Part shown: piece by piece, positions 338-11,945 of the stretch
How positions within the stretch are numbered: the first letter of the stretch is position 1
Layout of the letters: every line of letters begins with the position of its first letter
Origin: Bacteroidales bacterium
GTDB lineage: Bacteria; Bacteroidota; Bacteroidia; Bacteroidales; PUMT01
DNA: 40,413 nt
Assembly (NCBI GenBank): GCA_007132225.1
Contig: SLPB01000039.1
Coordinates: forward strand, 1 to 40,413
Direction: 5' to 3'
Translations under genes and position numbers: made by a program
Notes under the pieces: generated by a model
The model's database searches: none
What the model saw: the letters and a program-made list of their open reading frames with translations, nothing else
Told to the model about the DNA's origin: nothing

Positions 338-2554
338 TTATATTTTTTTTCGTTTCAGCCGCAGACTGTTGCTTATTACAGATACAGAGCTAAAGGCCAT
401 GGCCGCACCTGCAATCATAGGATTAAGAAGATAACCCGTAAAGGGATACAGAACACCTGCTGCAATTGGTATACCTATGATGTTGTAGATAAAGGCCCAA
501 AAAAGGTTCTGCCTGATTGTTTTTACAGTTTTACCGGATAAGCGAAGGGCAGTAACTATTTTATCAATATCACCCTTAATAATTGTAATATCAGAACTCT
601 CCATGGCAATGTCGGTGCCCGATCCCATTGCGATACCCAGATCTGCCTGTGTGAGGGCCGGAGAATCATTTATCCCGTCTCCAACCATTGCAACAGTTCT
701 GCCTGATGTTTGCAGCTCTTTAATGTAGCTAAGTTTATGATCGGGCATGGCATTTGCAATATATTTGTCAATACCGGCCATGCGCGATATTACACGGGCT
801 GTTTCACGGTTATCTCCGGTAAGCATATGAACTTCGAGTCCCATTTTTTTCATTTCCTCCACCGAAACGGAAGCATTATCCCTTAGCCTGTCAGAAACAG
901 CAAACACAATTTCTGCCTTTTCTCCTGAGGCAAAGAAAACAGCAGTCCTGCCCTCTTTTTCATACTCCCGGGCTTTATCCATTAAACCGGAGGAAATTGA
1001 TATATTTTTATCCTCCATGAGCCTGCCGCTACCCGCCAGAAAATCTCGTTCTCCTTTCCTGAATTCAATTCCCCTGCCTGTAATACTATTAAAAGAATCA
1101 ATTTTCTCAGGTTTTATTCCTTTTCCTGTAAGGTAGCGGACAACTGCTTGTCCCAAAGGATGTTCAGACCTTGATTCTGCTTCCAGCAGCAGGCCTTGAA
1201 AGCTTTCCCTGCCACTCTCTCCGCTTTCACTAATATATTCTGTCACCTCGGGTTTTCCTATTGTAAGCGTGCCGGTTTTATCCAGTACAATTGTATCTAT
1301 CTTTCTTGCCATCTCAAGGCTTTGAGCTTCGCGCACCAGGATACCCAGATCTGCTCCCCTTCCTATTCCCACCATAAGGGCAGTTGGAGTTGCCAGTCCA
1401 AGTGCACACGGACAGGCTATTATCAGAACTGATACAGAGGTGACAAATGCATAGGTCAGCGGGGGGTAAGGGCCGGCAAAATACCAGGTAATAAAGGTCG
1501 CAATAGCAATAATGATAACAAGTGGAACAAATATACCCGCGAACTTGTCCACCATCTTTTGAATTCGTGCTTTACTGCCCTGTGCCTCTTCAACAAGTTT
1601 AATTATACGAGCCAGCATGGTTTCTGATCCAACTTTTTCGGCCTTAAAGCTGAAACTTCCGGCTCCGTTTATTGTAGATCCTATAACTTTGTCTCCTGCA
1701 TTCTTCTCCGCCGGCATCGGTTCGCCGGTAATCATGCTTTCATCAATCCATGCCGTACCATCAACAAGTGTTCCGTCAACAGGGATTTTTTCTCCCGGCC
1801 TTACAATAATAAGTTGCCCCGGATATACCTGGTCAACAGGAATATCCTTAACTTCTCCGTCAATCAGCACTTTTGCAAATGCAGGCTGAAGTCCCATTAG
1901 CTTTTTTATTGATCCGGAAGTTTTTGATTTGGCCTTTTGTTCCAAATATCTGCCTGCGAGGATAAGTGTTATTATTACTGCAGCAGCTTCATAGTAAACG
2001 TGAGGCTGATGACCTCGTGCCAGAAGGAAGTCCGGAAAAAGAGTGTTGAAAAGACTGAATAAAAAAGCTGAGCCTGTACCTACGGCCACAAGGGTGTCCA
2101 TACTTGCTTCTGCATGCCTGGCCTTTTTCCATGCAACTATGAAAAAATCCCGCCCAAGAATGGCAATCACCGGAAAGGAGAGCACCAGCATTATCCAGTT
2201 GGCATAGGGGGCATGCATAAAGAACATGCCATAAATAAAAACCGGCAGCGTCAATATTGCCGAGGCTTTAAATCTTTTGCGAAGCGTCTTTAATTTCCTG
2301 TTTTCCCTTTCCTCCCGGGATGCTCCTTGCACGTTTTCTCTCTTTGCAAGGGAAAACCCAGTCTTGCGCAGACGGGCATCAAGATCGGAGAACCCGGTTT
2401 CGTTGTCGTCGTATTCAACCAGCACATTGTTAAGTGCCAGATTGACATTGGCATAATGAACACCTGTGTTATTTTCAAGCAGTTTCTCAACACTGTTAGC
2501 ACAGGAAGCGCATGTCATACCCTCAACGTTCCATGTCTCTTTTGCTGTAGCCAT
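338..2554 (-). CDS. copA: Copper-translocating P1B-type ATPase (CopA-like)
   Basis: N-terminal HMA motif GMTCASC, TGEPMP, CPC metal-transport motif ([17 protein letters not shown]), DKTGTLT phosphorylation motif, [10 protein letters not shown] hinge, and TM8 motif [15 protein letters not shown]. Confidence 0.95.
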
Positions 2555-3091: not shown

Positions 3092-3099
3092 TACATTTG
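3092..3099 (+). promoter_or_regulatory. Candidate Bacteroidota -7 element (TACATTTG) for the leader-trpB-his transcript
   Basis: Matches TAnnTTTG about 50 nt upstream of the leader ORF; no good -33 TTTG at standard spacing. Confidence 0.4.
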
Positions 3100-3146
3100 T
3101 TGCTTCTTAATAAGAAAAATTTATTTTTTAAGTTCAATTCAGAATA

Positions 3147-3200
3147 ATGTCAAAGGTGTTTTCTCATATGTGGTTGTGGCACGCCGGAATTTTTCGGTAG
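3147..3200 (+). CDS. Leader peptide MSKVFSHMWLWHAGIFR* (17 aa; alternative in-frame start at 3168 gives MWLWHAGIFR*)
   Basis: Translated directly: ATG TCA AAG GTG TTT TCT CAT ATG TGG TTG TGG CAC GCC GGA ATT TTT CGG TAG. Two Trp and two His codons within six codons, upstream of a strong terminator and the trpB-his operon. Confidence 0.7.
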   Translation: MSKVFSHMWLWHAGIFR

Positions 3201-3237
3201 AGGGAACCCGTATGCATATATTTTATTTTCAGTAAAT

Positions 3238-3267
3238 AAAAAAACCGCAGGGATCCCTGCGGTTTTT
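3238..3267 (+). terminator. Intrinsic terminator / attenuator hairpin upstream of trpB-his
   Basis: Perfect 30-bp palindrome aaaaaaccgcaggga/tccctgcggtttttt ending in a T tract, 38 nt after the leader stop codon. Confidence 0.85.
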
Positions 3268-3430
3268 TGTTTTAATTATTATATATCTGATGTTTATGAA
3301 TTTTATATTTATCAAATGGTGGAGGCGGGTTTCAATTTTATGGTTATTCCCCGGGTGTTTTTAATTATTAAAACGATAAACTGATAATTGAAACATGATA
3401 ATTAATCAATTGAATAAAAAACAACAATAA

Positions 3431-4648
3431 ATGAAAGAAAACAAACAAATTGAAGCTATGGCCGATATAAATCCGGATGTTATTGAAATAGATCAGGCAC
3501 TTTTTTCAGATGGGATGTATGGTAAATTTGGAGGTATGTATGTCCCGCCTCCACTGGAAAGCAAACTTCACAAACTTGCCGGTGAATTTAAATCTGCTGT
3601 TTATGATCCCGGTTTTAGAAATGAATTTATATACTATCTCAAAACATTTGTAGGACGTCCGTCCCCATTATTTTATGCCAGGAACCTTTCCCAGCGGATT
3701 GGCAGTAAAATATACCTTAAACGGGAGGATCTTAATCACACCGGGGCTCATAAAATAAATAACACTATAGGACAGATACTCCTTGCCAGGCGAATGGGAG
3801 CAAAAGAAGTGATTGCTGAAACTGGTGCGGGCCAGCACGGTGTTGCTACGGCAACTGCAGCTGCACTTGTTGGTATCAAGTGCAAGGTGTTTATGGGGAA
3901 GGTCGATGCAGAAAGGCAATCTGTAAATGTAAGCCGCATCAAACTTCTTGGAGCTGAGTTAATAACCACCGATATGGGTACTGCCACCCTTAAGGATGCG
4001 GTAAATGCTGCAATTGAATATTGGGTGGTCAATCCGGATTCTTTCTACCTGCTGGGATCTCAGGTCGGACCCCACCCTTATCCGGTTATGGTAGGATATT
4101 TCCAGCACATTGTTGGTAAGGAGGCCCGGCAACAAATACTTGAAGCAGAAGGACGCCTGCCAGATTCAATATTTGCATGTGTTGGTGGAGGGTCAAATGC
4201 TATTGGCCTGTTTGGCGCATTTTTAAAAGATACCGACGTTGAGATACATGCGGCAGAAGGAGGAGGGTCCGGAAGTAAGCCCAAAACAGCAGCCACATTG
4301 AATTTTGGTGTTCCGGGTGTTTTCCAGGGGACCTATTCATATTGTCTGGTAGATGGGCAGGGTCAGCCCACAGATTCATGGTCGATTGCCGCAGGACTGG
4401 ATTATCCGGGCATTAGTCCCCAACACGCATACCTTAAGGAAACCGGAAGGGCTCATTACCATTCCATAACAGATCAGGAAGCTATAGATGCCTTCCGAAT
4501 GCTGTCTCGGACAGAAGGTATAATACCTGCAATTGAATCATCACATGCCATTTCCCTGGCAGAAAAATTGCTTAAAGACAAAAACAAACTTGCAGTGATC
4601 AACCTTTCCGGCAGGGGAGATAAAGATGTTGAAAGAGATCTGGCATAA
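3431..4648 (+). CDS. trpB: Tryptophan synthase beta chain
   Basis: GKFGGMYVPPPL, KREDLNHTGAHKINN (PLP lysine), ETGAGQHGVATA, CVGGGSNAIG, NLSGRGDKD. Confidence 0.95.
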   Translation: MKENKQIEAMADINPDVIEIDQALFSDGMYGKFGGMYVPPPLESKLHKLAGEFKSAVYDPGFRNEFIYYLKTFVGRPSPLFYARNLSQRIGSKIYLKREDLNHTGAHKINNTIGQILLARRMGAKEVIAETGAGQHGVATATAAALVGIKCKVFMGKVDAERQSVNVSRIKLLGAELITTDMGTATLKDAVNAAIEYWVVNPDSFYLLGSQVGPHPYPVMVGYFQHIVGKEARQQILEAEGRLPDSIFACVGGGSNAIGLFGAFLKDTDVEIHAAEGGGSGSKPKTAATLNFGVPGVFQGTYSYCLVDGQGQPTDSWSIAAGLDYPGISPQHAYLKETGRAHYHSITDQEAIDAFRMLSRTEGIIPAIESSHAISLAEKLLKDKNKLAVINLSGRGDKDVERDLA

Positions 4649-4667
4649 ATATTTTATATAAATCCAT

Positions 4668-5525
4668 ATGGAAAAACTAAAAATTGCAATTCAGAAATCC
4701 GGACGACTAAGTGAAAAATCTCTTGATATAATAACTGAAGCCGGAATAAATCTAATAAACGGCTCCAGGAAACTCATCTCCCAGTCGTCAAATTTTCCAC
4801 TTGAAATACTTTATCTTCGTGATGATGATATTCCGCAATATGTTGCCGACGGAGTGGCCGATGCAGGTATTGTTGGTGAAAATGTGTTTATGGAAACGGG
4901 AATTGAGCTTGAAATACTTGAAAGGCTCGGATTTTCGCGCTGCCGGCTTTCCCTGGCAGTACCGAAATCAGGTAATTATAGCGGACCTGATTATTTTTCA
5001 GGTAAAAAAATTGCAACATCCTATCCCAATATACTGAAAACTTATCTTCAAAAAAGAGGCATTAAGGCAGAGATTCACGTCATAAATGGATCGGTTGAGA
5101 TAGCCACAGGTATAGGATTGGCAGATGCAATTTTTGATATTGTCAGTTCCGGAAGTACTCTTATCAGTAACGGGTTAAAGGAGGTTGAAAAGATCATGGA
5201 TTCAGAGGCAGTATTACTGGCTTCCCCTTTAATGGAGAAAAATAAAACTGTTATAATGACCGATCTTTTATTCAGGCTAAGGACAGTTCTTGCTGCAAGA
5301 AACAATAAGTATATATTGCTCAATGCTCCTGATGATAAGCTGGAACAGATAATAAGCATCCTGCCCGGCATGAAGAGCCCGACTGTTCTGCCTCTTGCAT
5401 TAAAAGGATGGAGCTCCGTACATTCTGTTGTTAACGAGAATGATTTCTGGCAGGTTATTGGCAAGCTGCGGGAATATGGTGCTGAAGGAATACTTGTTAT
5501 TCCTATTGAGAAAATGATATTTTAA
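4668..5525 (+). CDS. hisG: ATP phosphoribosyltransferase (long form, ~285 aa)
   Basis: KIAIQKSGRLSEKSLDI, DVADAGIVGENV-like segment, KKIATSYPNILKTYL, NGSVEIATGIGLADAIFDIVSSGSTL; first his gene in the operon. Confidence 0.93.
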   Translation: MEKLKIAIQKSGRLSEKSLDIITEAGINLINGSRKLISQSSNFPLEILYLRDDDIPQYVADGVADAGIVGENVFMETGIELEILERLGFSRCRLSLAVPKSGNYSGPDYFSGKKIATSYPNILKTYLQKRGIKAEIHVINGSVEIATGIGLADAIFDIVSSGSTLISNGLKEVEKIMDSEAVLLASPLMEKNKTVIMTDLLFRLRTVLAARNNKYILLNAPDDKLEQIISILPGMKSPTVLPLALKGWSSVHSVVNENDFWQVIGKLREYGAEGILVIPIEKMIF

Positions 5526-5539
5526 CTAAATCCTGGCTT

Positions 5540-6859
5540 ATGAAAATAATAATAAACCCGCCGGTTGCTGAGTGGGAAAAACTATGCAGCCGCCCCTTGC
5601 TTGAAAACGTTAAGCTTGAAAGGGAGGTAAGGATCATAATGGATGAGGTGAGAAAAGGAGGCGATGAGATGCTGAGAATATTCAGCCGTAAGTTTGACGG
5701 GGTTGAGATTGACAGGCTGGAAGTTTCAGGGGAGAAGATTGAAGAATCAGCCGGCTTGCTTGATGACCGCTTAAAGGATGCAATTAATATTGCTGTAAAA
5801 AATATCGAAGCATTTCATCTTGCCCAGAAGCCATCTGAAATAAAGGTTACCACCATGCCCGGAGTGGAATGCAGTATGCGTTACCTTCCCATAGAGAGGG
5901 TGGGCCTTTATATTCCCGGGGGAACAGCTCCGCTGTTCTCAACTGTACTTATGCTCGGTATTCCCGCCAGAATTGCCGGTTGCCGTGAAGTTGTCCTGTG
6001 CTCTCCGCCCGGGGAATCGGGCAGTATTCATCCTGCCATATTGTATGCAGCTTCCCAGGCATCTGTGAAATCTGTTTTTTGTGTAGGGGGTGCCCAGGCT
6101 ATTGCTGCAATGGCATATGGTACCGAAAATGTTCCGAAAGTGGATAAGATATTCGGCCCGGGAAACCAATGGGTTACAATGGCCAAGCAGATAGCTGCCA
6201 GTTCGGGAATAGCCATTGATCTTCCCGCAGGACCATCTGAAGTGGTTGTTGTTGCTGATAAATCTGTTCCTCCTGAATTTATTGCTGCAGATCTTCTTTC
6301 TCAGGCAGAGCACGGTCCGGATAGCCAGGTCATGCTTCTTACAACCGACAGGGAGATAATAGAACCGGCCAGGGTGGAAATTGAAAGGCTGTTAAACAGG
6401 TTGCCCCGGAAGGAAATTACTGCAGCAGCACTCAAGTATGGCAGTATTGTTGTATTCGATAACTATGATCTGCTAATGGACTTCGTGAATGATTATGCGC
6501 CTGAACATCTTATAATTGCCACTACCAATTATAATCAGCTTGCAGAAAAAGTGCTAAATGCAGGATCGGTATTTCTGGGTAATTACACACCAGAGAGTGC
6601 AGGAGATTACGCTTCGGGCACGAATCATACCCTCCCCACTAACCGCTTTGCCAGGGCCTGGAGCGGGGTGGGGACAGAAGCATTTATGAAAAGAATAAGT
6701 TTTCAGGAAATATCCGGTGGCGGGTTGCAGGCACTGGGACCGATGATTGAGTTCATGGCCCAGGCAGAGAAACTGGAGGCTCACCGGCAGGCAGTAAAGG
6801 TAAGGCTTGATCATTTAACCAGACAAAGTAATTTTTCATGGGAGCAATCTATTCATTGA
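5540..6859 (+). CDS. hisD: Histidinol dehydrogenase
   Basis: ERVGLYIPGGTAPLFSTVLM, VDKIFGPGNQWVTMAK, DLPAGPSEVVVVAD, AEHGPDSQ, GNYTPESAGDYASGTNHTLPT. Confidence 0.97.
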   Translation: MKIIINPPVAEWEKLCSRPLLENVKLEREVRIIMDEVRKGGDEMLRIFSRKFDGVEIDRLEVSGEKIEESAGLLDDRLKDAINIAVKNIEAFHLAQKPSEIKVTTMPGVECSMRYLPIERVGLYIPGGTAPLFSTVLMLGIPARIAGCREVVLCSPPGESGSIHPAILYAASQASVKSVFCVGGAQAIAAMAYGTENVPKVDKIFGPGNQWVTMAKQIAASSGIAIDLPAGPSEVVVVADKSVPPEFIAADLLSQAEHGPDSQVMLLTTDREIIEPARVEIERLLNRLPRKEITAAALKYGSIVVFDNYDLLMDFVNDYAPEHLIIATTNYNQLAEKVLNAGSVFLGNYTPESAGDYASGTNHTLPTNRFARAWSGVGTEAFMKRISFQEISGGGLQALGPMIEFMAQAEKLEAHRQAVKVRLDHLTRQSNFSWEQSIH

Positions 6860-7884
6860 TACGGCAAAATATAAGGGACCTGAAGCCCTATTCTTCGGCC
6901 CGGGATGAGTATACGGGTGAAGATGCGGTTTTTCTTGATGCAAATGAAAATCCTTATTTTCATCCACTCAACAGGTATCCTGATCCCCGTCAAAGAGACC
7001 TTAAGAAAATGATTGCGGGTATGAAATCTGTTTCTGAAAAAAATATATTTCTGGGAAACGGAAGCGATGAGGCAATTGATATCCTGATCAGGGCCTTTTG
7101 TGAGCCGGGCACCGACAATATAGTTTCAATTGATCCGACATATGGAATGTATGAAGTTTCTGCTGCAATAAACGGAACAGAATACCGCAAAGTTCCTCTT
7201 AAGAGTGACTTTAGTCTTAATGTTGATGCACTTCGTGATAGTTCAGATCAAAACACAAAAATTATTTTCCTATGTTCCCCAAATAATCCCACTGGAAATA
7301 GTTTCACTCATTCAGATATAAATAATATTGTGAAATGGTTTAACGGCATCCTGATTATTGATGAGGCATATATTGACTTTTCCGTAAATCAGGGCTTTAT
7401 TGGTATGATTGACAGGATTAACAATCTGGTTGTTCTTCAGACCATGTCAAAGGCATGGGGAAAAGCAGGGATCAGACTTGGAATGGCATTTGCCGGTGAG
7501 CAGATTACAGATGTTATGAATAAGATCAAACCTCCCTACAACATTAACTCTCTAACAATTCACGAAGGCCTTACCACGCTTGGTAATGAAAATGAAAAGA
7601 ATATGAGGGTTTCACAAATAATTAATGACAGAAACCGGCTTTTTGAGAAAATGCAGAAACTCAAAACTGTTAAAAAAGTTTATCCTTCAGACGCTAATTT
7701 CCTGTTGGTTGAGGTAGATGATGCAGCAGGAATATATAATTACCTGATTTCCAAAAATATTATAATTCGTAACCGTTCGGGAATCGCCCGGTGCAAAAAC
7801 TGCCTGCGGATTACTATTGGTACAACTGAAGAAATCGAGCAGTTACTTAAAGCGTGGATTAATTATGAAACTTCGAACAAATAA
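6838..7884 (+). CDS. hisC: Histidinol-phosphate aminotransferase
   Basis: DANENPY, NGSDEAIDILIRAF, SPNNPTGN, IDEAYIDF, TMSKAWGKAGIRLG; overlaps the hisD 3' end by 22 nt. Confidence 0.95.
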   Translation: MGAIYSLIRQNIRDLKPYSSARDEYTGEDAVFLDANENPYFHPLNRYPDPRQRDLKKMIAGMKSVSEKNIFLGNGSDEAIDILIRAFCEPGTDNIVSIDPTYGMYEVSAAINGTEYRKVPLKSDFSLNVDALRDSSDQNTKIIFLCSPNNPTGNSFTHSDINNIVKWFNGILIIDEAYIDFSVNQGFIGMIDRINNLVVLQTMSKAWGKAGIRLGMAFAGEQITDVMNKIKPPYNINSLTIHEGLTTLGNENEKNMRVSQIINDRNRLFEKMQKLKTVKKVYPSDANFLLVEVDDAAGIYNYLISKNIIIRNRSGIARCKNCLRITIGTTEEIEQLLKAWINYETSNK

Positions 7885-7905
7885 TTTGCTAACCATATCA
7901 TACAG

Positions 7906-9030
7906 ATGAAGAGAGCTTTGTTTATTGACCGCGACGGAACTTTGATTGTTGAGCCACCTGAAGACTACCAGGTTGACTCTCTGGAAAAGCTGGAATTTCT
8001 TCCAGGTGTCTTCAGGGCTATGTACAATATAAGTAAAAACCTTGATTACGAATTGGTAATAGTGACCAACCAGGATGGTCTTGGCACTGAAAGCTATCCC
8101 GAAGCTGATTTTTTGAAGGTGCAGGAAAAAATGCTGAAAGCATTTGAAAATGAAGGAGTGGTTTTTGATGATATATTGATCGATAAATCTTTTCCTCAGG
8201 ATAATCGTCCAACAAGAAAACCCCGGACCGGACTTATGAAGATGTATATGAGCGGAGAGTATGATCTGGCCGGCTCATGGGTTATAGGCGACCGTCTGAC
8301 GGATATAGAGCTTGCAGCTAATCTGGGTGCAAAGGGAATATTAATCGGAAATCAGAACATGTGGAAAGAGATAAAGGAAGCTTCGCTGGGATCCAGTTGC
8401 GTGCTGGTAACCAATAGCTGGGATGAGATATTTACTCATCTTCTTTTACCTGAGAGGATAGCAGTGGTGGAGCGGGAGACTTCAGAGACTAAAATTGGCA
8501 TAAAACTTTCTCTTGACGGCACTGGTAAATCTTTGGCAGATAGCGGACTTGGCTTTTTTGATCATATGCTTGAACAGATTGCCCGCCATTCCGGGTGTGA
8601 TATAGAAATAAAGGTCAAAGGAGATCTTTACCGGGATGAGCATCATACTATTGAGGATACAGGACTAGCCCTGGGAAGTGCTTTCCTTAAGGCACTTGGA
8701 AACAAGAGGGGTATAGAACGCTACGGGTTTTTTCTTCCTATGGATGATTCTGCCGTTCTTGTGGGAATAGATTTTGGCGGTCGTTCCTGGCTTAACTGGG
8801 AGGCTGAATTTAAAAGGGAGAAGATAGGGGATGTGCCTACGGAAATGTTTTCGCATTTTTTCCATTCTTTTTGCGAGGAGGCCAAGTGTAATCTCTTCAT
8901 CAGGGCAAAGGGAGATAATGAACATCATAAGATAGAAGCGATCTTTAAAGCTTTTGCCCGCAGCATAAGGATGGCGGTTAAAAGGGAAGCGCTAAACAAT
9001 GAATTGCCTACCACAAAAGGCTTTTTATAA
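7906..9030 (+). CDS. hisB: Bifunctional histidinol-phosphatase / imidazoleglycerol-phosphate dehydratase
   Basis: N-terminal HAD motif FIDRDGTLIVEP; C-terminal IGPD motifs GLGFFDHMLEQIARHSG, DEHHTIEDTGLALG, DNEHHKIEAIFKAFARSIRMA. Confidence 0.96.
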   Translation: MKRALFIDRDGTLIVEPPEDYQVDSLEKLEFLPGVFRAMYNISKNLDYELVIVTNQDGLGTESYPEADFLKVQEKMLKAFENEGVVFDDILIDKSFPQDNRPTRKPRTGLMKMYMSGEYDLAGSWVIGDRLTDIELAANLGAKGILIGNQNMWKEIKEASLGSSCVLVTNSWDEIFTHLLLPERIAVVERETSETKIGIKLSLDGTGKSLADSGLGFFDHMLEQIARHSGCDIEIKVKGDLYRDEHHTIEDTGLALGSAFLKALGNKRGIERYGFFLPMDDSAVLVGIDFGGRSWLNWEAEFKREKIGDVPTEMFSHFFHSFCEEAKCNLFIRAKGDNEHHKIEAIFKAFARSIRMAVKREALNNELPTTKGFL

Positions 9031-9121
9031 TAATAAAAATTAGCCTCTGGCAGATAATAAAATATGAATACCTTATATGGAACACACATTGACAAGCTGA
9101 ATTAACAATTTGTGTTTGTGC

Positions 9122-9165
9122 AACATATTGATTAATGAGTTTCTGCAATTATTAATCAATATGTT
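9122..9165. repeat. Perfect 15-bp inverted repeat in the hisB-hisH gap
   Basis: aacatattgattaat (9122-9136) and attaatcaatatgtt (9151-9165), 14-nt loop. Confidence 0.85.
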
Positions 9166-9247
9166 ATAAAGTAAGTCTGTGATTTTTTATCTGCGGGATT
9201 AAATTAACTGAGTTTGCTTCAACAATAAGATTAAAAGAAGGATTACC

Positions 9248-9832
9248 GTGAACCAAAAAATAGTTATAATTAAATATAACGCCGGAAATATCAGGTCGGT
9301 CGATTTTGCCCTGCGGCGCATGGGGATAAATGCTGAAATTACCGGTGATCCTGATAAGATAAGAACAGCAGCCAAAGTTATTTTTCCCGGGGTCGGGGAA
9401 GCGAGTGGTACTATGGAGTATCTCAGGCAGCGCGGACTGGATATTGTTATTAGTCAGCTCACCCAGCCTGTTTTGGGAATTTGCCTTGGGATGCAGTTGA
9501 TGTGCAGATATTCAGAAGAAGGATTTACTGATTGTCTGAATATTTTTGATACGGAAGTGATTAAGTTTACAGGGGGTAAGGTTCCCCACATGGGGTGGAA
9601 TGCCCTCGAAAAACTTAACGGGAAGTTGTTTTATAAATTAAACAAGGGAACATATGTATATTATGTGCATTCTTATTTTGTTCCTGAAAACATTAACACA
9701 ACTGCCGTAAGTTTTTATGGTATACCTTTTTCTGCTGCCATGCAGCGTGACAATTTTTATGCCACTCAGTTTCATCCGGAGAAATCCGGCGGCTATGGTG
9801 AACTAATACTTAAAAATTTCATCTCTTTATGA
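9248..9832 (+). CDS. hisH: Imidazole glycerol phosphate synthase, glutamine amidotransferase subunit (GTG start)
   Basis: YNAGNIRSVDFALRR, FPGVGEASGTM, GICLGMQLM nucleophile elbow, QFHPEKSG. Confidence 0.95.
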   Translation: MNQKIVIIKYNAGNIRSVDFALRRMGINAEITGDPDKIRTAAKVIFPGVGEASGTMEYLRQRGLDIVISQLTQPVLGICLGMQLMCRYSEEGFTDCLNIFDTEVIKFTGGKVPHMGWNALEKLNGKLFYKLNKGTYVYYVHSYFVPENINTTAVSFYGIPFSAAMQRDNFYATQFHPEKSGGYGELILKNFISL

Positions 9833-10548
9833 TAGATCTTATTCCTGCAATAGACCTTATAGAAGGTAAATGTGTCCGCCTTATAAAAGGGGATTTCAAA
9901 TATAAAACTGTTTATTCTTCAGATCCTGTTGATATGGCAATGAAATTTTATGATTATGGGTTTACAAGGCTTCATCTTGTCGATCTTGACGGGGCAGAAA
10001 GGGGGCGTCTTAAACATCTGAAGATTATGGAGAGAATTGCAGTAAAAACCGGTTTGCAAATCGATTTCGGGGGAGGAGTGCAAAATTTGTCAGATGTGCA
10101 TTCCATTATTAATGCCGGGGCATTTATGGTGTGCATTGGAAGTATGGCTGTAAAGGACGAGAAGGAGTTTGATAAAGTACTGGAGCATTTTGGTCCGCAA
10201 AGGATCATTCTTGCCGCCGATACGAAAGATGACGAGCTGGTGATTTCAGGATGGAAGGAGTCGGCCGGGGTTTCCGTTTTTAATTTTATAGACAAGATGA
10301 CCGCAAAGAACATTGGCAGCATCCTTTGTACTGATGTTAATAAGGATGGAATGCTGGGGGGAACCGCCCTGTCGCTGTATGAAAGAATTATGGAAAGATT
10401 CCCTGAATTATATCTCATAGCCAGCGGGGGGGTAAGTAATATAAGCGATATAGAAATGCTTGAGAAATCTCCCGTTCCTGCAGTGGTCTTCGGAAAGGCT
10501 TTTTATGAAGGAAAACTGAAGATTGAGGAACTTAAACACCTGTTGTAG
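9829..10548 (+). CDS. hisA: Phosphoribosylformimino-5-aminoimidazole carboxamide ribotide isomerase
   Basis: IPAIDLIEGKCVRLIKGD, HLVDLDGAERG, DFGGGVQ, TDVNKDGMLGG, IASGGVSNISD; 4-nt overlap with hisH. Confidence 0.95.
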   Translation: MIDLIPAIDLIEGKCVRLIKGDFKYKTVYSSDPVDMAMKFYDYGFTRLHLVDLDGAERGRLKHLKIMERIAVKTGLQIDFGGGVQNLSDVHSIINAGAFMVCIGSMAVKDEKEFDKVLEHFGPQRIILAADTKDDELVISGWKESAGVSVFNFIDKMTAKNIGSILCTDVNKDGMLGGTALSLYERIMERFPELYLIASGGVSNISDIEMLEKSPVPAVVFGKAFYEGKLKIEELKHLL

Positions 10549-10590
10549 TTGTTGCTTATTATCTGAATTTTTATCACAAATTACTAAAAT

Positions 10591-11346
10591 ATGCTTGCAA
10601 AAAGAATTATACCCTGCCTTGATGTTTTCAATGGAAAGGTAGTAAAAGGAATAAATTTTATCAACCTGAAAGAAATCGGGGATCCTGTGGAGCATGGTGC
10701 CCTTTATTCTCAGCAGGGAGCAGATGAGCTTGTTTACCTGGATATTACAGCAACACATGAAAAACGAAAGCTGCTTTCGGACCTGGTAAGAAGAATTGCT
10801 GAAAATATTAATATTCCCTTTACAGTTGGCGGGGGTGTTAATCAGCTCTCTGATGCTGATGCACTGTTAAGTGCCGGAGCTGATAAAATAAGTGTTAATT
10901 CAGCTGTTCTTTTGAACCCTTCACTGATAGACCAGATTGCCAAATCTTTTGGCAGCCAGTTTCTGGTAGTGGCTATTGATGCTAAAAATATTGACGGACG
11001 CTGGGTTGTATATCGTAATGGTGGCAGAATAGCTACTGATCGTGAGCTCTTTGAATGGGCAGGCGAAGTGGTCCTTCGGGGAGCCGGTGAAATACTTTTC
11101 ACCTCAATGGATCATGACGGTGTTAAAAACGGTTATGCCTGCAAAGAGCTTGCTATGTTGTCAGATGCTTTGCCAATTCCTGTTATTGCATCCGGCGGTG
11201 CAGGTGCTCCTGAGCATTTTCTTGAGGCATTCAAGACAGGAAAAGCTGATGCTGCTTTGGCAGCCAGTGTATTTCACTATAATGAAATAGCAATTCCGGA
11301 GTTGAAAGAGTATCTTCATCAGAATAATGTTACAGTTAGATTATAA
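10591..11346 (+). CDS. hisF: Imidazole glycerol phosphate synthase, cyclase subunit
   Basis: [79 protein letters not shown]. Confidence 0.97.
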
Positions 11347-11351
11347 AAATT

Positions 11352-11945
11352 ATGGAAATTGATTTTAAAAAGGGCGGCGGACTTGTGCCTGTTATAGTAC
11401 AGCATGCAGATACCATGAGTGTGCTGATGCTTGCCTATATGAACAAAGAGGCATATGATCGGTCTCTTAAAACCCGGAGGGCCACTTTTTTCAGTCGGTC
11501 ACGAAATGAGATCTGGGAAAAAGGGGAGATTAGCGGAAACTGGCTTGAGATTAGGGATTTATCTATTGATTGCGATGGAGATACACTGCTGCTCAGGGTA
11601 GAGCCCAAAGGGCCTGTATGTCATACCGGCACTGATACCTGCTTTGGAAATGTTAAAAAAAGTGATTTCCCCTTTCTTGAGAAACTTGATGAAATTATTG
11701 CCTCACGGAAAAATACACTTCCGGAAAACTCCTACACCACTGCCCTGTTTAAAGCCGGAATAAATAAAGTTGCCCAGAAAGTCGGAGAGGAGGCTGTGGA
11801 GCTTGTGATTGAGGCAAAAGACGATAATGATGAACTGTTTCTGAATGAAGCCGCTGACCTTCTTTATCATTTGATTGTTTTGCTTCGATATAAAGAATAT
11901 TCACTACATGATGTTATATCTGTTCTCAAGAAACGCCATTCCTGA
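11352..11945 (+). CDS. hisIE: Bifunctional phosphoribosyl-AMP cyclohydrolase / phosphoribosyl-ATP pyrophosphatase
   Basis: MLAYMNKEAYDRSL, TRRATFFSRSRNEIWEKGEISGN, DCDGDTLLLRVEPKGPVCHTG; C-terminal KVGEEAVELVIEAKDDN, EAADLLYHLIVLL. Confidence 0.95.
   Translation: MEIDFKKGGGLVPVIVQHADTMSVLMLAYMNKEAYDRSLKTRRATFFSRSRNEIWEKGEISGNWLEIRDLSIDCDGDTLLLRVEPKGPVCHTGTDTCFGNVKKSDFPFLEKLDEIIASRKNTLPENSYTTALFKAGINKVAQKVGEEAVELVIEAKDDNDELFLNEAADLLYHLIVLLRYKEYSLHDVISVLKKRHS

Follow-up and report, generated by a model that had tools for sequence, protein, structure and literature searches.

A predicted tryptophan attenuator with flanking histidine codons heads a fused trpB-his operon in a Bacteroidales bacterium

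The trpB-his operon of a Bacteroidales bacterium, carried in a contig of 40,413 nucleotides (SLPB01000039.1; this whole stretch is called the window hereafter), is headed by what appears to be a Trp attenuator of known kind, whose termination is probably also relieved by His starvation, as in a Trp-or-His OR gate. Ribosome-mediated attenuation in response to Trp is well supported by the conservation and covariation described below. The leader would thus be the Trp attenuator normally accompanying this clade of trpB genes, now governing a trpB-his unit devoid of its own poly-His attenuator.

The leader peptide ORF, of 17 codons, is located on the plus strand at positions 3147-3200 and encodes MSKVFSHMWLWHAGIFR*, with TAG as stop codon. 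An earlier note on this DNA had claimed this ORF and its H-M-W-L-W-H stretch, and both are present. The candidate control codons His7(CAT)-Met8-Trp9-Leu10-Trp11-His12(CAC) occupy 3165-3182 (codon starts: CAT 3165, ATG 3168, TGG 3171, TTG 3174, TGG 3177 and CAC 3180), and the presence of both Trp and His codons matches the products of the operon behind them. Such a density, with two Trp and two His codons in a six-codon stretch of a short ORF, exceeded chance: of 3000 random 650-nt regions with matched dinucleotide composition, 4 contained one. Upstream, a –7-like promoter box of the Bacteroidota TAnnTTTG type, TACATTTG, was found at 3092-3099 on the plus strand, with no clear –33 box seen alongside it. 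This motif was enriched within 110 nt upstream of the leaders of related loci (16 of 37 loci vs 3.3 expected), and the position of the transcription start of the leader RNA is a predicted one. The TAnnTTTG boxes, the Bacteroid-trp matches obtained in genomes of the same order and the named records nearest in TrpB all point to the phylum Bacteroidota.

Three further plus-strand elements complete the putative attenuator. Segment 1 (3165-3175) can pair with 3205-3214, which would form a protective 1:2 stem in the absence of a ribosome. Segment 2, AGGGAACCC, lies at 3201-3209 immediately 3′ of the TAG, exactly as previously described, and represents the antiterminator strand. Between the leader and the first gene, an intrinsic terminator at 3239-3268 presents a 13-bp stem, a GATC loop and six T, and homologous terminators were found in 37 of 37 loci. 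This terminator is the perfect 30-nt palindrome AAAAAACCGCAGGGATCCCTGCGGTTTTTT already reported, although it had been placed at 3238-3267; similarly, the proposed pairing of segment 2 with the terminator held, with its partner GGGATCCCT being located at 3250-3258 rather than at 3249-3257. The fold of the 199-nt leader RNA gave a z of –2.9.

The covariation of these segments among related loci, a check proposed along with the original claim, argues for the mechanism. In a swap test performed on 37 loci, the stretch between the leader codons and the terminator was paired in turn with the terminator of the same locus and with the terminators of the other loci. Pairing of segment 2 with its own terminator averaged –15.4 kcal/mol vs –12.5 kcal/mol for the swapped ones (z –6.6), and none of 20,000 permutations was as good; because the permutation preserves the composition of each partner, this signal reflects covariation and not G+C content. 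After close relatives were thinned to 25 loci, the z was –4.5, and sliding windows revealed that the signal peaked 24-42 nt downstream of the first Trp codon, which corresponds to segment 2 (z –8.0). Moreover, the pairing of the leader codons with the following segment, that is, the protective 1:2 stem, gave a z of –6.2 in the permutation test, so that mutually exclusive antiterminator and terminator structures and the protective stem are all conserved by covariation.

The mechanism that this anatomy predicts is the classical one. With no ribosome, the codon region in segment 1 would pair with segment 2, and the terminator would also form; when a ribosome stalls at the control codons, segment 2 would remain available for pairing with 3250-3258, and this antiterminator would let transcription proceed to trpB and to the eight his genes behind it. 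A ribosome-mask folding model, purely thermodynamic, without kinetics and sensitive to the assumed footprint, reproduced this logic, including termination with the ribosome at the stop codon, as had been proposed: in the window, the antiterminator pairs numbered 11.0 with the ribosome at H7, W9 or W11, 0.1 at H12, 0.0 at the stop codon and 0.6 with no ribosome, and the means over 27 footprint and length settings were 7.2 for H7, 7.8 for W9, 6.2 for W11, 4.8 for H12, 0.2 for the stop codon and 3.3 with no ribosome. In this model, Trp and His codons thus both fall within the stall-permissive zone, a stall at H7 being predicted to free the antiterminator much as stalls at W9 and W11 do and a stall at H12 less reliably; permissiveness was weak for H12 in the window and for H7 in the L004 locus. 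Termination is thus probably also relieved by His starvation, given that a His codon lies on either side of the Trp codons where stalling would be permissive.

Downstream of the leader, family matches bore out the operon as described, that is, trpB followed by eight his genes. The trpB gene (3431-4648, plus strand) matched TIGR00263 with 531.6 bits (cut-off 392) and belongs to a clade whose members usually lie apart from trp operons, and hisG, hisD, hisC, hisB, hisH, hisA, hisF and hisIE (4668-11945, plus strand) presented NCBIfam matches over the cut-off. The junction between trpB and hisG is 19 nt long (4649-4667, plus strand) and lacks the poly-His leader and terminator seen here in relatives; no terminator was found between these genes in the window, and a scan of the window, including the inside of the operon, found no second His-rich short ORF. 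Among 27 other his operons of relatives whose upstream sequence was usable, 25 by hand count present a His-rich leader before hisG. In the G010 and G012 genomes, the trpB-hisG interval contains a poly-His leader (LNHHHHHHYD and ANHHHFID, respectively) together with a terminator, and both genomes also carry the same H-x-W-x-W-H leader before trpB. The poly-His attenuator before hisG is absent in the window genome (G000) and in G011, the latter with a trpB-hisG spacing of about 37 nt, which leaves the trpB leader as the sole attenuator that can be seen ahead of the his genes in either genome.

This clade of trpB was present in 40 of the 393 genomes searched within the order, mostly apart from his or trp genes. 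The matches in a TrpB scan of genome contigs were mostly to unrelated TrpB. Upstream of orthologous trpB genes, 37 regions carried a leader (WW, WWW or W-x-W) with a terminator 22-42 nt past the stop codon. A phylum-wide search yielded one further clade member, the trpB of L170, upstream of which a scripted search found no leader. The W/H codons proved to be conserved where the earlier note had suggested looking: the leaders of the relatives' trpB-his operons read HMWLWH (G010), HIWFWH (G011) and HIWLWH (G012), each followed by a terminator, and in 4 of 4 trpB-his loci, the window included, the H-[MI]-W-[LF]-W-H core is kept while the remaining peptide diverges.

In this order, leaders of plain trp operons contain FWWWHLQ or FWWWHSQ, and the trpE leader of the window genome reads NKIWWWHGFIQ, with WWWHG also occurring in G010, G012 and G002. 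In this trpE leader (L193, contig C117), a near-complete 12-bp match was observed between segment 2 (GCTGTGTTAAGC) and the terminator (GCTTAGCATAGC), which covaries with that of relatives (GCTATGTTAAGC/GCTTAACATAGC). The supposition that the window genome has no trp operon was dropped, as trpE and trpG are present; the contig ends about 150 nt past trpG, and the absent trp genes may therefore represent an assembly gap. In the window genome, G011 and G035, trpA, trpC and trpD were not found, which in G011 and G035 would fit indole salvage if those assemblies are complete.

A second conserved short ORF, MFMNFIFIKWWRRVSILWLFPGCF*, of a W-x7-W class, is placed between the terminator and trpB (3290-3364, plus strand). 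ORFs of this class occupied the same interval in 13 of 31 loci (the window, L143, L145, L146, L149, L159, L161, L165, L166, L167, L173, L177 and L179), against about 0.0003 expected per locus, with MKNEILSWLQKVIFRWHR and MQYIIRWFNKIDFLWRKS as examples of the peptides. Conservation at codon positions 1, 2 and 3 was 0.415, 0.454 and 0.313, and this ORF is probably translated because the first two positions are more conserved than the third. Some of these peptides read W-[LF]-N-x-I-[DE] and may loosely resemble TnaC.

The claim of dual Trp/His sensing stood in part. The dedicated His attenuator is missing, a stall at H7 is predicted to be permissive, and the first His is almost confined to the trpB-his leaders, 4 of 4 of which carry a His at position –2 relative to the first Trp vs 2 of 33 other trpB leaders. 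On the other hand, the second His is ordinary in plain trp leaders, and the same leader occurs beside the poly-His attenuators of G010 and G012. The main alternative is a Trp-only attenuator inherited with trpB, in which the His codons are incidental or fixed at the RNA level and the his genes are either under Trp control or under an unrecognised control of their own; we give this account an appreciable but minor share of probability. It is favored by the leader being unchanged where the his genes own an attenuator (G010 and G012) and by the occurrence of His directly after the Trp run in plain trp leaders, in stand-alone trpB leaders and in leaders ahead of trpB-trpE operons. Moreover, in the 33 other trpB leaders the residue at this +1 position was L in 11, H in 9, Q in 5 and R in 4 (29 of 33), and its codon nearly always begins with C, which suggests a nucleotide-level constraint on the leading C. 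The conservation of the first His codon may likewise be structural, at the RNA level, because CAT 3165 is itself paired in the 1:2 stem, where 3165-3170 pair with 3209-3214. Against a Trp-only account, both His codons occur together in 4 of 4 trpB-his leaders vs 0 of 33 others, in addition to the bias of the first His, and the leader core was preserved while its flanks diverged; these four leaders are nevertheless one lineage, within one genus, and the 4 of 4 vs 0 of 33 therefore counts as one or few events. Furthermore, when His is scarce, ribosomes would be expected to stall physically at a His codon located in the modeled permissive zone.

Two other explanations were considered, both with less probability. 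It is unlikely that the his genes of the window genome depend on an independent internal promoter or control, with the leader serving mainly trpB. A 217-nt gap between hisB and hisH, with a perfect 15-bp inverted repeat with a 14-nt loop at 9122-9165, could accommodate such control, but this repeat was not seen at the hisB-hisH gap of nine relatives (gaps of 14-219 nt), hisG starts 19 nt after trpB with no terminator between them, and the operon contains no His-rich short ORF. Far less credible is the absence of any attenuator, with the palindrome being a bidirectional or small-RNA terminator of a divergent intergenic region and the leader ORF a product of chance. A copper-type P-type ATPase gene is indeed encoded divergently upstream of the attenuator (338-2554, minus strand), and the palindrome has the form of a terminator on either strand; however, leader and terminator co-occur in 37 loci despite their differing neighbors, the pairing segment covaries, and no upstream plus-strand gene of at least 100 aa needs termination here.

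Regarding the origin of the Trp-or-His gate, a tentative scenario, to which we assign somewhat less than an even chance, is that a stand-alone trpB leader gained a second His codon and took over His control as the poly-His attenuator was deleted, perhaps twice. In the concatenated his tree, G011 groups with G002 (100/99), and a clade of G000 and G011 was rejected (p-AU 4.5e-78); the TrpB tree grouped G000 and G011 weakly (77/90). These phylogenies favor the His attenuator having been lost twice independently, with recombination of the trpB end as a possible alternative. If such a gate exists, two separate amino-acid pathways would have been fused under one leader peptide. The relatives provide a natural series, composed of a trpE leader, a stand-alone trpB leader, a trpB leader with a His attenuator and a trpB-his fusion without one, which makes the change from a one-signal to a two-signal attenuator directly testable. 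In a broader context, this is a widespread class of attenuator before stand-alone trpB genes in one order, and Rfam models did not recognise it where tested.

In fact, no Rfam family reached its gathering threshold on the window, and the sub-threshold matches were mostly to the terminator hairpin on either strand. Among the closest known systems is the Bacteroid-trp RNA (Rfam RF01692; Weinberg 2010, PMC2864571), which, in the same phylum, likewise places a Trp leader peptide and a terminator ahead of trp genes; unlike it, the window element precedes a trpB of the stand-alone type fused to his genes and has a W-x-W flanked by His. RF01692 (gathering threshold 49 bits) did not match the window even at E values up to 10, nor the tested trpB relatives of the window, whereas trp operons of the same order scored 50.2 (L007), 49.7 (L020) and 48.5 bits, L007 and L020 serving as positive controls for the search. 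The E. coli trp leader (RF00513) shares the three-way 1:2, 2:3 and 3:4 logic and is unrelated in sequence, matching the window at 3169-3270 on the plus strand with 17.3 bits against a threshold of 41. Both leaders also present a further candidate control codon after the Trp codons, Arg12 in E. coli and His12 in the window; in trpL, a stall at Arg12, the codon following the Trp codons, blocks attenuation (PMC1183508).

Attenuation ahead of his genes is also a feature of the his operon leader (RF00514) and of the poly-His leaders of the order. The former matched the window only on the minus strand, at the terminator hairpin, with 24.7 bits (gathering threshold 49), and in the latter about 3-6 consecutive His codons lie immediately ahead of hisG, in contrast to the two separated His codons found before trpB in the window. 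A literature search, not exhaustive, found no precedent for a combined Trp/His leader. Control codons for several amino acids are nonetheless known to occur in one leader in the case of the ilv operons. Another such leader is thrL, with Thr and Ile codons (title of Lynn 1987, as cited in PMC7041290). The window leader resembles the thrL and ilv leaders in that a single leader peptide bears candidate control codons for at least two amino acids, and it differs from them in that their amino acids belong to linked pathways, whereas Trp and His belong to two separate ones.
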